From: Pseudomonadota bacterium | Lineage (GTDB): Bacteria > Pseudomonadota > Gammaproteobacteria > Xanthomonadales > Rhodanobacteraceae | Assembly (NCBI GenBank): GCA_021793575.1 | Contig: JAJYSM010000028.1 | Location: 1-40,710 of the forward strand | DNA length: 40,710 bases | Direction of reading: 5' to 3' | In this document: in pieces, positions 9,746 to 16,311 of the stretch | Position numbering within the stretch: the stretch's first letter is position 1 | Layout of the letters: each line of letters begins with the position of its first letter | Translations under genes and position numbers: made by a program | Notes under the pieces: model-generated | Databases searched by the model: none | Told to the model about the DNA's origin: nothing | Seen by the model: the letters and a program-made list of their open reading frames with translations, nothing else

Positions 9746-9795
9746 CCTTGATGCATCCACGAGGTGTCATGGTGTCCGGTTATGTCGATATGCAA

Positions 9796-9811
9796 AGACG
9801 TCTGGACGTCC
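9796..9811. promoter_or_regulatory. Tandem Met boxes (putative MetJ operator) upstream of cysD
   Basis: Two contiguous octamers read AGACGTCT GGACGTCC. The first is the perfect MetJ consensus and the second differs only at its two outer bases. MetJ binds as dimers on two or more adjacent 8-bp boxes. The site is 110 bases before the cysD ATG and about 26 bases before a possible -10, TATGAT (9838-9843). The MetJ-domain protein at 15802-16311 is the obvious candidate to bind it; this is inference from the motif. Confidence 0.7.
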
Positions 9812-9921
9812 GTCCGCCGAAAGCCTGCAAGGCGCATTATGATGGGCGGCCACGGACGGATGACCCCGCCATCCCGCCAACCTCCGTTTCGCCAGCACCC
9901 GATACCGAGTCTTTGCCTGCC

Positions 9922-10839
9922 ATGACGATGCCCGCGTTGCCGTTGCGAACCCACCTCGACGATCTCGAGGCCGAGAGCATCCACATCTTCCGCGAGGTGG
10001 CGGCGAACTTCCGCCGTCCGGTGATGCTGTATTCGATCGGCAAGGATTCCTCCGTGCTGTTGCATCTGCTGCGCAAGGCGTTTTATCCGGCGCGGCCGCC
10101 GATGCCGCTGCTGCACGTGGACACCACCTGGAAGTTCCGCGAGATGATCGCCTTGCGCGAGCAGGTGGCGACGGCCGGCGACGTGGACGTACTGGTGCAC
10201 ATCAACCAGGACGGCGTGCGCCAGGGTATCTCCCCGCTGACGCACGGCGCCACCGTGCACACCGATCTGATGAAGACGGTGGCGCTGAAGCAGGCGCTGG
10301 ACCAGCACGGTTTCGATGCGGCGATAGGTGGCGCCCGCCGCGACGAGGAGAAGTCGCGCGCGAAGGAACGCATCTTCTCTTTCCGCACCGCGCAGCATCG
10401 CTGGGATCCGAAACAGCAGCGGCCGGAGTTCTGGCACACCTACAACACCTTCATCCACCCGGGCGAGAGCGTGCGGGTGTTTCCGCTGTCCAACTGGACC
10501 GAGATGGACGTGTGGCTGTACATCCGCCGCGAGAACATTCCGGTGGTGCCGCTGTACTTCGCCAAGCCGCGTCCGGTGGTCGAACGCGACGGCGCGCTGA
10601 TCATGGTCGACGACGAGCGGTTCACCCTGCGCGCGGGCGAGACGGTGCAGCAGCGCGAGGTGCGCTTTCGCACGCTGGGCTGCTATCCGCTCACCGGCGC
10701 GGTGGCATCAACGGCCGACACGCTGGACAAGATCATCGAGGAGATGGCCAGCTCGCGAAGTTCCGAGCGGCAGGGGCGGGTGATCGACCAGGACCCCGGC
10801 GCCTCGATGGAGCGCAAGAAGCAGGAGGGCTATTTCTGA
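9922..10839 (+). CDS. cysD: Sulfate adenylyltransferase small subunit CysD
   Basis: CysD, with CysN, makes adenosine 5'-phosphosulfate from ATP and sulfate, the first step of sulfate assimilation. The 305-residue product is close to the usual 302. It has the PP-loop ATP pyrophosphatase motif [14 protein letters not shown] near residue 37, and the conserved [30 protein letters not shown] and the C-terminal [12 protein letters not shown] 9922 (with a second ATG at 9928) is chosen because CysD families begin with a short lead before LDDLEAESI; the longer open frame from 9748 would run through the Met boxes. There is no strong Shine-Dalgarno. Its TGA shares a base with the cysNC ATG (TGATG), so translation is coupled. 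Confidence 0.96.
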
Positions 10840-12725
10840 TGAGCACGTCGACCGGCACCGGCATGAATGCAGCGCGAGGCTTGCTGCGCTTCATCACCTG
10901 CGGCAGCGTGGACGACGGCAAGAGCACCCTGCTGGGGCGACTGCTGTACGACGCCGGCATGCTGGCCGACGACCAGCTCGCCGCGCTGGCGCGCGATAGC
11001 CGCCGGCAGCACGCGGATGCGCCCGATGCCCTCGATTTCTCGCTGCTGGTCGACGGGCTCGACGCCGAGCGCGAGCAGGGCATCACCATCGACGTGGCCT
11101 ACCGTTATTTCCAGACCGCACGGCGCAGCTTCATCGTGGCCGACTGTCCGGGACACGAGCAGTACACGCGCAACATGGCCACCGGCGCATCCAACGCCGA
11201 GCTGGCGGTGGTGCTGGTGGACGCGCGCAAGGGCCTGCTGGCGCAGACGCGCCGACACACTTATATATGTGCGTTGCTGGGTATTCGCCACGTGGTGCTG
11301 GCGGTCAACAAGATGGATCTGGTCGACCACGACGAGACCGTGTATGCCGCCATCACGGCGCAATACCGGCGACTGGCGCAGGAGCTGGGCGTCAGCCAGG
11401 TGCAGTGCCTGCCGGTGGTGGCGCCCACCGGCGACAACGTGGGCGCGCGCTCGGCGCGGATGCCCTGGTACGACGGCCCCTGCCTGCTGGAGCTGCTGGA
11501 GTCGGCTGACGTGACCCCATTCCGCGCGGAGGATTTCCGCCTGCCGGTGCAGTGGGTCAACCGTCCGGACCACACGTTTCGTGGCTACGCCGGCACCATC
11601 TGCGGCGGCAGTGTCAGCGTGGGCGACGAAATCATCGTGCAGCCCGGCCTGCAGCGGGCGCGCATCGAACGCATCGTCGGCACCGGTGGCGAGCTCGCAC
11701 GCGCGTCGGCCGGCGAGGCGGTGACGCTGTGCCTGCATCGCGAAGTGGATGTCAGTCGCGGCGACGTGATCGCCGACGCGCTGCGGCCGGCGGCGGTGGC
11801 CGACCAGTTCGCCTGTCATCTGCTGTGGCTGGGCGATGCGCCGCTGCTGCCCAGCCGCACCTACCGGCTGAAGATCGGCACGCGCACGGTCAACGCGCGG
11901 GTGATGTCGATCAAGTACAAGGTCGATGTCAACAGCCAGTCGCGGCTGGCGGCGCGGCATCTGGATCTCAACGAGGTGGGCTGCTGCACGCTGAGCCTGG
12001 ACGAGCCGATCGCATTCGAGCCGTATGCGCTCAATCGCACGCTGGGCGGATTGATCCTGATCGACCGCCAGAGCAACGCCACGGTGGCCTGCGGCATGCT
12101 TGACTTCGCGCTGGAGCGCTCGTCCAACGTGCACTGGCAGCATGTCGACATCGACAAGTCGGTGCGCGGCGCAAGCAAGGGCCAGCAGCCGCTGTGTTTG
12201 TGGTTCACCGGACTGTCCGGCGCCGGCAAGTCGACCATCGCCAACCTGCTCGAGCGCCGCCTGCACGCGCTCGGCTATCACACCTACCTGCTCGACGGCG
12301 ACAACGTGCGCCACGGCATCAACAAGGATCTTGGTTTCACCCCCGAGGATCGCGTGGAGAACATCCGCCGCATCGCCGAGGTGGCGCATCTGATGGTGGA
12401 CGCGGGACTGATCGTGCTGGTCAGCGCGATCTCGCCGTACCGCAGCGAGCGGCGCTCGGCGTGCGAGCTGTTCGATGATGGCGAGTTCCTGGAGGTATTC
12501 GTGGATGCGCCGCTGGCGGTGTGCGAGCAGCGCGATCCGAAGGGCCTGTACCAGAAGGCCCGCGCCGGCGCGATCCGCAACTTCACCGGCATCGACGCGC
12601 CGTACGAACGGCCCGAGGCGCCGGACATGCATCTGCACACCGACGGCCAGCGCGCCGAGCTGCTTGCCGAACAGCTCACCGAACAGCTGCTCGCACGCCA
12701 GGGGGGTGGGCCCGGCTCGGCGTGA
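10839..12725 (+). CDS. cysNC: Bifunctional CysN-CysC: sulfate adenylyltransferase GTPase subunit fused to APS kinase
   Basis: A 628-residue fusion. Residues 1 to about 435 are CysN, the GTPase that drives APS synthesis with CysD: P-loop GSVDDGKS at 22-29, G3 in [18 protein letters not shown]4 NKMDL, then EF-Tu-like beta-barrel domains. Residues from about 440 are APS kinase (CysC), which phosphorylates APS to PAPS: P-loop GLSGAGKST at 458-466, [17 protein letters not shown], and [20 protein letters not shown]. NodQ/CysNC fusions are common in proteobacteria. Both active sites look intact. The start overlaps the cysD stop, and the stop (12723-12725) overlaps a GTG start of the next gene. PAPS reductase and sulfite reductase genes are not in the window. 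Confidence 0.96.
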
Positions 12726-15614: not shown

Positions 15615-15642
15615 TTCAAGTTTTTATATATGGACGTATAGA
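15615..15642 (+). promoter_or_regulatory. Possible promoter overlapping the Met boxes
   Basis: TTCAAG (15615-15620), a 16-base gap and TATAGA (15637-15642). The -10 lies within the Met-box pair, so a bound MetJ would block polymerase. Both hexamers are imperfect. A second candidate nearer the gene is TTGACA (15746-15751) with TAGCTT 17 bases on. Confidence 0.4.
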
Positions 15643-15647
15643 CGTCT
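15632..15647. promoter_or_regulatory. Tandem Met boxes (putative autoregulatory MetJ operator)
   Basis: Two adjacent octamers read GGACGTAT AGACGTCT. The second is the perfect MetJ consensus and the first matches six of eight. The 14-bp sequence TATAGACGTCTATA (15637-15650) is itself a perfect palindrome set in an AT-rich stretch. It is 154 bases before the MetJ-H1 start codon on the same strand, which fits autoregulation. Confidence 0.7.
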
Positions 15648-15801
15648 ATATATAAATATCACAAACCAGTCGACACCCTTGCTGCTGCTGGTTTTGCAAG
15701 GCTCGAAGTGGCAGTGAGGCGGCTTGATTCCATGGTTGAAATCCATTGACAGTTGAAATCTTCCGGAATAGCTTTCGCTTCAGATCATAGGGAACGGCAC
15801 C

Positions 15802-16311
15802 ATGGCAACATCGAAATTCATCAAGCCTTATGTCGAGCACGGTGCAAAAGCCGATGCGGTACGCAAGATCACCGTCTCGATTCCGCTGCATGTTTTACGG
15901 ATGCTTTCCGACTTGCGCACCGAGCGCCAAGTGAAAAATTTTCGGCACGCCACCAACAGCGATTTGTTGGTCGAGGCGTTCCTGCACGCTTTTACTGGGC
16001 AACCACTGCCAACTGATGAGGAGCTGAGACGAACTATGGCCACTGCCAAGAAATCCGCTGCAAAGAAACCGGCCGCCAAGAAGGCCGCCAAATCCACTGT
16101 GAAGAAAGTCGCTGCCAAGAAGCCGGCAGTCAAGAAAGTGGCTGCCAAGAAACCGGCCGCCAAGAAAGCTGCTGCGAAGAAGCCGGCGGCTGCCAAGAAG
16201 GCTGCCGTGAAGAAGGTTGCAAAAAAGGCTGCGCCGAAGAAGGCCGCCGTCAAGAAGGCTGCACCGGCCAAAGTGATGAAAGTCACCAAGACCGCCAAGG
16301 CGAAGAAGTAA
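15802..16311 (+). CDS. MetJ-like ribbon-helix-helix repressor fused to a histone-H1-like lysine tail
   Basis: A 169-residue protein of two very different parts. Residues 1-77 closely match E. coli MetJ, the SAM-dependent repressor of methionine genes: [15 protein letters not shown] is the DNA-reading beta strand and helix A, with K22 and T24 at the positions that touch Met-box bases. [19 protein letters not shown] (46-64) is helix B, followed by TGQPLP, the region next to the SAM pocket. MetJ normally continues for about 30 more residues including a third helix; here that part is missing. Residues 79-169 are instead about 35 Lys with Ala, Pro and Val in [13 protein letters not shown] repeats, like bacterial H1-like nucleoid proteins (AlgP, Hc1 type). 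The tail begins at an in-frame ATG (16036) with the classical H1-like start [21 protein letters not shown] precedes ATG 15802 by eight bases. Likely a Met/Cys regulon repressor; the tail's role and SAM response are inference. Confidence 0.88.

Follow-up and report, generated by a model that had tools for sequence, protein, structure and literature searches.

A MetJ core fused to a histone H1-like tail in Rhodanobacteraceae, with a conserved nucleotide signal and a candidate internal start at the junction

MetJ is a textbook repressor. The protein presented here resembles E. coli MetJ (PF01340; PDB 1cma, others) in its core sequence over residues 4-89, in invariant core residues and in the Met-box tandems found at sulfur genes. 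It differs from it in that a tail of about +35 takes the place of the C-terminal part after the core, and in that its gene has a nucleotide signal at the junction.

Lysine-rich tails and nested genes have each been described elsewhere. In the Pseudomonas proteins AlgP and PhaF, an N-terminal domain is likewise joined to a Lys/Ala/Pro-rich, disordered, DNA-binding tail of H1-like KPAA type, as described in PMC9239181. Unlike these proteins, the fusion has a sequence-specific metabolite repressor as its N-terminal part, and its tail comes with its own candidate start. Genes within genes such as infB, clpB, mrcB and cheA also make a C-terminal product in the same frame, and PMC11005335 likewise uses conservation of start codon and Shine-Dalgarno (SD) sequence as evidence. 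In comparison with those infB-type starts, the metJ case is known from sequence alone, its leader is frozen well past the SD element, and its short product would be a nucleoid-type protein.

Core, tail and distribution of the fusion

The window, i.e., the whole stretch of DNA analysed, comprises 40,710 nucleotides of contig JAJYSM010000028.1 (assembly GCA_021793575.1, Rhodanobacteraceae). Two features define the fusion within it.

15802..16311, + strand: metJ-H1 fusion gene, 169 aa, a single frame from ATG to TAA
15802..16032, + strand: MetJ ribbon-helix-helix core, residues 1-77 (profile and structure matches, alignment)

Residues 5-89 match the Pfam MetJ model (PF01340) with 117.8 bits against a cut-off of 25 (E 2e-34), residues 4-89 match the NCBIfam MetJ model with 124 bits against a cut-off of 110, and E. 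coli-type MetJ structures align to residues 4-89 (E 5.5e-30). In an alignment of 25 sequences K22, T24, R42, E58 and A63 are invariant, and K22 is kept in 82 of 83 distinct family genes. We take K22 and T24 to be the base-contacting lysine and threonine of MetJ. R42, E58 and A63 correspond to Arg43, Glu59 and Ala64 as numbered in the E. coli MetJ account of PMC2775130. The Pfam and NCBIfam matches and the alignment bear out the preliminary description, which had named a MetJ core with K22, T24 and the TGQPLP region. Its claim that the last part of MetJ is replaced also holds: the E. coli-type C-terminal segment after the core is absent and the tail stands in its place. MetJ proteins of the sister family f12 end at 79-82 aa and still score over the cut-off; hence we do not regard this segment as required for membership of the MetJ family.

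Residues 78-169 contain 35 lysines, 33 alanines and no aspartate or glutamate, in line with the roughly 35 lysines in a 91-residue Ala/Lys tail reported initially. The 91 residues from 79 to 169 have a charge of about +35 at pH 7. The tail scores 31.9 bits against HC2 (PF07382, cut-off 40) on the protein and 41.4 bits in a six-frame search, and residue 79 is where an H1-like NCBIfam model starts to align, from its first position, with 26.3 bits, below its cut-off of 80. The tail is like chlamydial HC2 and the Burkholderia H1-like proteins (PF07382, NF038053) in composition and repeat style, and differs from them in scoring near or below the cut-offs and in being encoded within metJ. The AlphaFold single-chain model of the fusion has a mean pLDDT of 50.8 and was given no weight.

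According to PMC2775130, debate continues over activation of MetJ by SAM's positive charge. The fusion, with about +35 extra charges on each chain, offers a natural test of charge-based activation: if SAM is still needed, simple charge cannot account for the whole of the switch.

A MetJ match was found in 227 of 233 Rhodanobacteraceae genomes, and 84 family loci were read, comprising 79 closed genes and five that run off a contig end. All 79 closed genes have a tail, which is 35-310 residues long with a K+R fraction of 0.29-0.49. A frameshift or an assembly join, by which the preliminary description would have been refuted, is rejected on this count. A separate complete metJ was also looked for: the profile search finds MetJ once in the genome that bears the window, and no second metJ in that assembly (123 contigs, 99.83% complete). 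Throughout Rhodanobacteraceae, then, the predicted protein has a MetJ core that continues in frame into a Lys/Ala tail of H1-like type.

MetJ occurs in 53 of 200 genomes of the order, confined to three of the twelve families sampled, and in three of 274 genomes of the class (own genome included in both). No such tail is present in the MetJ loci read from sister families, 13 in f9 and six in f12. The MetJ profile search across Xanthomonadales that had been suggested as a check accordingly recovers the tail in one family, Rhodanobacteraceae, with nine of the twelve sampled families giving no MetJ match at all. Given the tail is family-wide and the loci read from the sister families are tail-less, the fusion is best seen as an old family trait. 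It is also present in Dyella choica (locus L002). Locus L071, which shares its genus with the window, encodes a protein identical to one of Rhodanobacter sp. B04, so that the window very likely belongs to Rhodanobacter; the family assignment agrees with these named relatives. Among the database matches listed (120 of 808), many are called MetJ with PF01340, often also with PF07382. The MetJ naming of these proteins is therefore already in databases; for the tail, no description was recognised among the papers listed from the open-licence literature that was searched.

Several observations concern incomplete or duplicated loci. Short MetJ proteins among the matches listed come from G484, G579, G483 and G478 (loci L048, L096, L097 and L058), all at a contig end, and from G472, G473 and G510, at a contig end by match coordinate. 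In L179, L180, L048, L058, L096 and L097 metJ is cut at the contig end in or near the tail, perhaps because the tail repeats break assemblies. Genome G515, listed as 9% contaminated, has two metJ matches, a case of duplication or contamination.

Other H1-like sequences also occur in the family. Separate H1-like genes in L109, L126, L129 and L135 start with MAT(T/K)R(K/T)(S/P)AAKK and have AGGAG or CGGAG 9 nt before the ATG; an AGGAG + 9 nt pattern before an ATG is present in 19 of 117 genomes, not each confirmed upstream of an H1-like gene. Homology of the junction with such leaders is not claimed, the shared AGACG being inconstant among them. In the HC2 search of 13 genomes, three (G031, G485 and G662) gave nothing beyond metJ itself, in G662, and a very long frame, 841-970 aa in length; the ten others showed additional or different matches. 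HC2 matches within very long frames recur in several relatives. In L108 a topoisomerase-like ORF (judged by eye) lies beside or bears an HC2-like Lys/Ala stretch, and by likeness to it the 841-970 aa frame is perhaps topoisomerase-like.

Frozen codons at the junction

The preliminary description noticed the fusion and overlooked a conserved, start-like signal at codon 79, which involves three features.

15988..16035, + strand: codons 63-78, conserved at synonymous sites and leading up to the internal ATG (codon alignment, third-position changes)
16018..16023, + strand: GAGGAG, Shine-Dalgarno-like, with a gap of 12 nt to the internal ATG (9 nt where codon 78 is missing)
16036..16311, + strand: nested in-frame ORF from the ATG at codon 79, candidate H1-like protein of 91 aa, about +35

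Third-position changes were counted by parsimony on 83 distinct family genes, with a tree built from the upstream codons. Most synonymous sites vary widely up to codon 62 and then freeze: there are 2.7 changes per codon in codons 65-76, where conservation is strongest, versus 14.3 in codons 10-62, within which the lowest single codon has 3. ACT is kept in 82/83 genes, GGG in 82/83, CAA in 78/83, CCA (codon 70) in 82/83, and the two GAG codons in 82/82 and 83/83. AGA is used in 76 of the 76 genes where codon 76 is arginine, versus 0.7% of arginine codons in 24 long ORFs of the window. Codons 72, 75 and 77 are still variable, and codon 78 is variable and sometimes missing. Where codon 68 encodes Gln, Lys, Ser or Thr, as it does in a number of genomes, its third base A remains unchanged: the nucleotide is conserved apart from the residue.

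The same stretch stands out in base composition and in whole-genome searches. GC at third positions in Rhodanobacteraceae drops from 0.71 to 0.39 over codons 63-76; the corresponding values are 0.81 and 0.83 in tail-less f12, with no drop, and 0.43 and 0.40 in AT-rich f9, with no contrast. The tail-less f12 and f9 MetJ genes that were read do not show the frozen block. The 30-mer ACTGGGCAACCACTGCCAACTGATGAGGAG is found with at most 3 mismatches in 216 of 233 family genomes, versus none for the reversed control. The 17 genomes without it comprise six without a MetJ match, two with contig-edge fragments that stop short of the block (G651, G655), eight in which the block is present and diverges further (G150, G653, G660 and G661, i.e., loci L024, L052, L061 and L046, and G595, G652, G656 and G658), and G552, which has lost most of the block. 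Read as sequence, the junction has a conserved nucleotide signal, consisting of a frozen low-structure leader, GAGGAG and ATG, laid over the protein code.

A block of this kind could be a nucleic-acid site at which a partner, i.e., a small RNA or an RNA-binding or DNA-binding protein, controls metJ, the ATG being incidental. The exact letters are frozen across at least 36 nt, beyond what a start site needs, an imperfect dyad TGGGCA-N5-TGCCAA lies within the block, and the hairpins GGCA/TGCC and GCTTTT/GAGGAGC are fully possible in 76/84 and 66/84 loci, respectively. Yet Rfam and tRNA searches of the block yield no known RNA family at the gathering score and no tRNA, the own genome holds no second copy within 3 mismatches, and no compensatory changes are seen; we consider this explanation unlikely. 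A hammerhead-like CUGANGA, noted by eye, was rejected, since its GAA part lacks conservation and the motif does not survive in ACC variants. No conserved start of an out-of-frame short ORF was seen in the block by eye. A consensus scan, which also overlooked the TTGACA-17-TAGCTT element before metJ, gave no internal sigma-70 promoter.

A candidate translation start at codon 79

The ATG at codon 79 is present in 81 of the 82 family loci that reach that point and in 12 of 12 further loci, and Met occupies the position in all 120 homologous proteins listed; these three sets overlap. Codon 78 is missing in some lineages, and the Met after the junction stays. The sole family lineage without the ATG is L092 (G552), which also lacks most of the frozen codons: it keeps ACT, CTG, GAT and the second GAG of the block and has GTG at the ATG position. 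Most of the frozen codons and the ATG appear as if lost together in G552, as one unit, in what is a single event.

Predicted pairing and folding also set the site apart. The anti-SD energy before codon 79 is -8.43, versus -6.05 for a synonymous null and -4.63 at the first start. The mRNA folding energy from -45 to +39 around codon 79 is -13.75 versus a null of -22.53 (-15.94 at the first start), folding is weaker than the null in 80 of 80 cases, and codon 79 is the least structured of eight positions sampled. Low structure and strong SD pairing are partly due to the same frozen rare codons, so the two tests are not independent.

These two properties would also hold if the block were a programmed elongation pause at the domain boundary, letting the intertwined MetJ dimer form before the tail emerges, with no second protein. 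The location at the domain junction and the rarity of many frozen codons in the window ORFs (ACT 3.4%, CCA 4.9% and CGA 3.0% of their amino acid, besides AGA) also suit a pause. However, one exact codon is kept despite the availability of other rare synonyms, the frozen GAG and CTG codons are common ones, and the third base A is kept despite amino acid changes. A pause moreover requires no ATG, yet the ATG is near-universal and is absent in the lineage without most of the block. This explanation is given a low probability.

A plain fusion, in which the tail merely raises the DNA affinity of MetJ and an ancestral H1-like gene has left the ATG and leader behind as relics, agrees with the separate H1-like genes with MATTRKSAAKK-type starts in family genomes. 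A relic would decay, however, and the third positions of the block change about 5 times less often than those upstream, which makes this reading quite improbable.

The favoured reading, held with moderate confidence, is an internal translation start that would yield, in addition to the fusion, a separate H1-like protein of 91 aa. The predicted product from codon 79 begins like the separate H1-like proteins of the family (e.g., MATTRKSAAKK). The 12-nt gap between GAGGAG and ATG is long in most lineages and weighs against an internal start, and GAG GAG is found at the same codons in some tail-less f12 genes too. In addition, a start site requires an SD element, an ATG and weak structure but no run of 36 frozen nucleotides; an internal start thus leaves part of the signal unexplained. 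A hairpin covering the SD element is possible in full in 66 of 84 loci and would couple the internal start to ribosome passage through the core; across the 84 loci no compensatory change was found, and its pairs break in some lineages.

Under an internal start, ribosomes would begin at codon 1 to give the MetJ-tail fusion, whose core would bind Met boxes as a dimer and whose tail would give extra nonspecific DNA affinity. Ribosomes would also begin at codon 79, giving a free, roughly 9-kDa H1-like protein that would coat DNA. On this evidence the metJ of Rhodanobacteraceae is fused and probably also nested. Its junction signal makes a strong and testable gene-within-gene case, with a regulator and a histone-like protein in one frame.

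Met boxes, promoter and sulfur genes

Four features bear on the regulation of metJ and its putative targets.

15632..15647, strand not assigned: tandem Met box, GGACGTATAGACGTCT, 170 nt before the metJ start
15746..15774, + strand: promoter-like TTGACA-17-TAGCTT (by eye from conservation in relatives; consensus scan silent)
9796..9811, strand not assigned: tandem Met box upstream of cysD, whose likely start we infer at 9922
9748..10839, + strand: cysD ORF, putative MetJ target with a Met box upstream

Tandem Met boxes with at most 3 mismatches number 16 in the own genome (overlapping registers counted), versus five for the reversed pattern. Eight have 2 mismatches, and four of these are at sulfur genes: cysD, metJ itself, a divergent metX/cysK pair and a divergent cysB-like/cysG pair, the cysB-like protein scoring below its models' cut-offs. 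The other four lie in or beside genes without an evident link, e.g., a helicase-like or an esterase-like ORF (by eye). In nine relatives the boxes with at most 2 mismatches sum to 37, versus four for the control; G552 and G485 have one versus one, equal to the control. A metX-like gene adjoins a Met box in four of the nine (G115, G662, G031 and G514), counted on some sites per genome and with the G031 gene just under the cut-off. Predicted Met-box tandems at sulfur genes, metJ included, are hence present in the own genome and in relatives, as had been anticipated.

Before metJ, a Met box with at most 4 mismatches is found at -205 to -140 in 56 of 84 family loci, versus a shuffled expectation of 0.3%; the 28 loci without one include several from genus g9. 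The box lies about 100 nt upstream of the conserved TTGACA-17-TAGCTT element. Since a Met box lies upstream of metJ, the SAM level could tune both products, the fusion and the free H1-like protein. It is tentatively suggested that one frame encodes both a SAM-sensing repressor-histone fusion and, through an ultraconserved internal start, a free H1-like histone, so that SAM or methionine would set the dose of a nucleoid protein family-wide. If true, chromatin state would be coupled to sulfur economy across a whole bacterial family.

In Rhodanobacter R12, PMC12146267 reports MetJ up with nitrate and methionine enzymes down. A survey of 199 proteobacterial genomes gives no MetJ regulon for its four Xanthomonadales (PMC4239095); compared with that listing, the present data point to MetJ regulation in one Xanthomonadales family.

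The sulfate assimilation genes cysD and cysN/C-like lie at 9748-12725 of the window, about 3 kb from metJ, with the Met box at 9796, and MetJ control of sulfate assimilation is possible. A Met box adjoins a metX-like gene in L115, L145, L146, L148 and L149, from several genera, the gene being divergent from a cysteine synthase in L115 and L145. Finally, an inverted repeat of the TTGATTnCATG..AAATC type (window 15720-15751) in many relatives stands directly ahead of the -35-like hexamer of metJ, and is possibly the site of another regulator.
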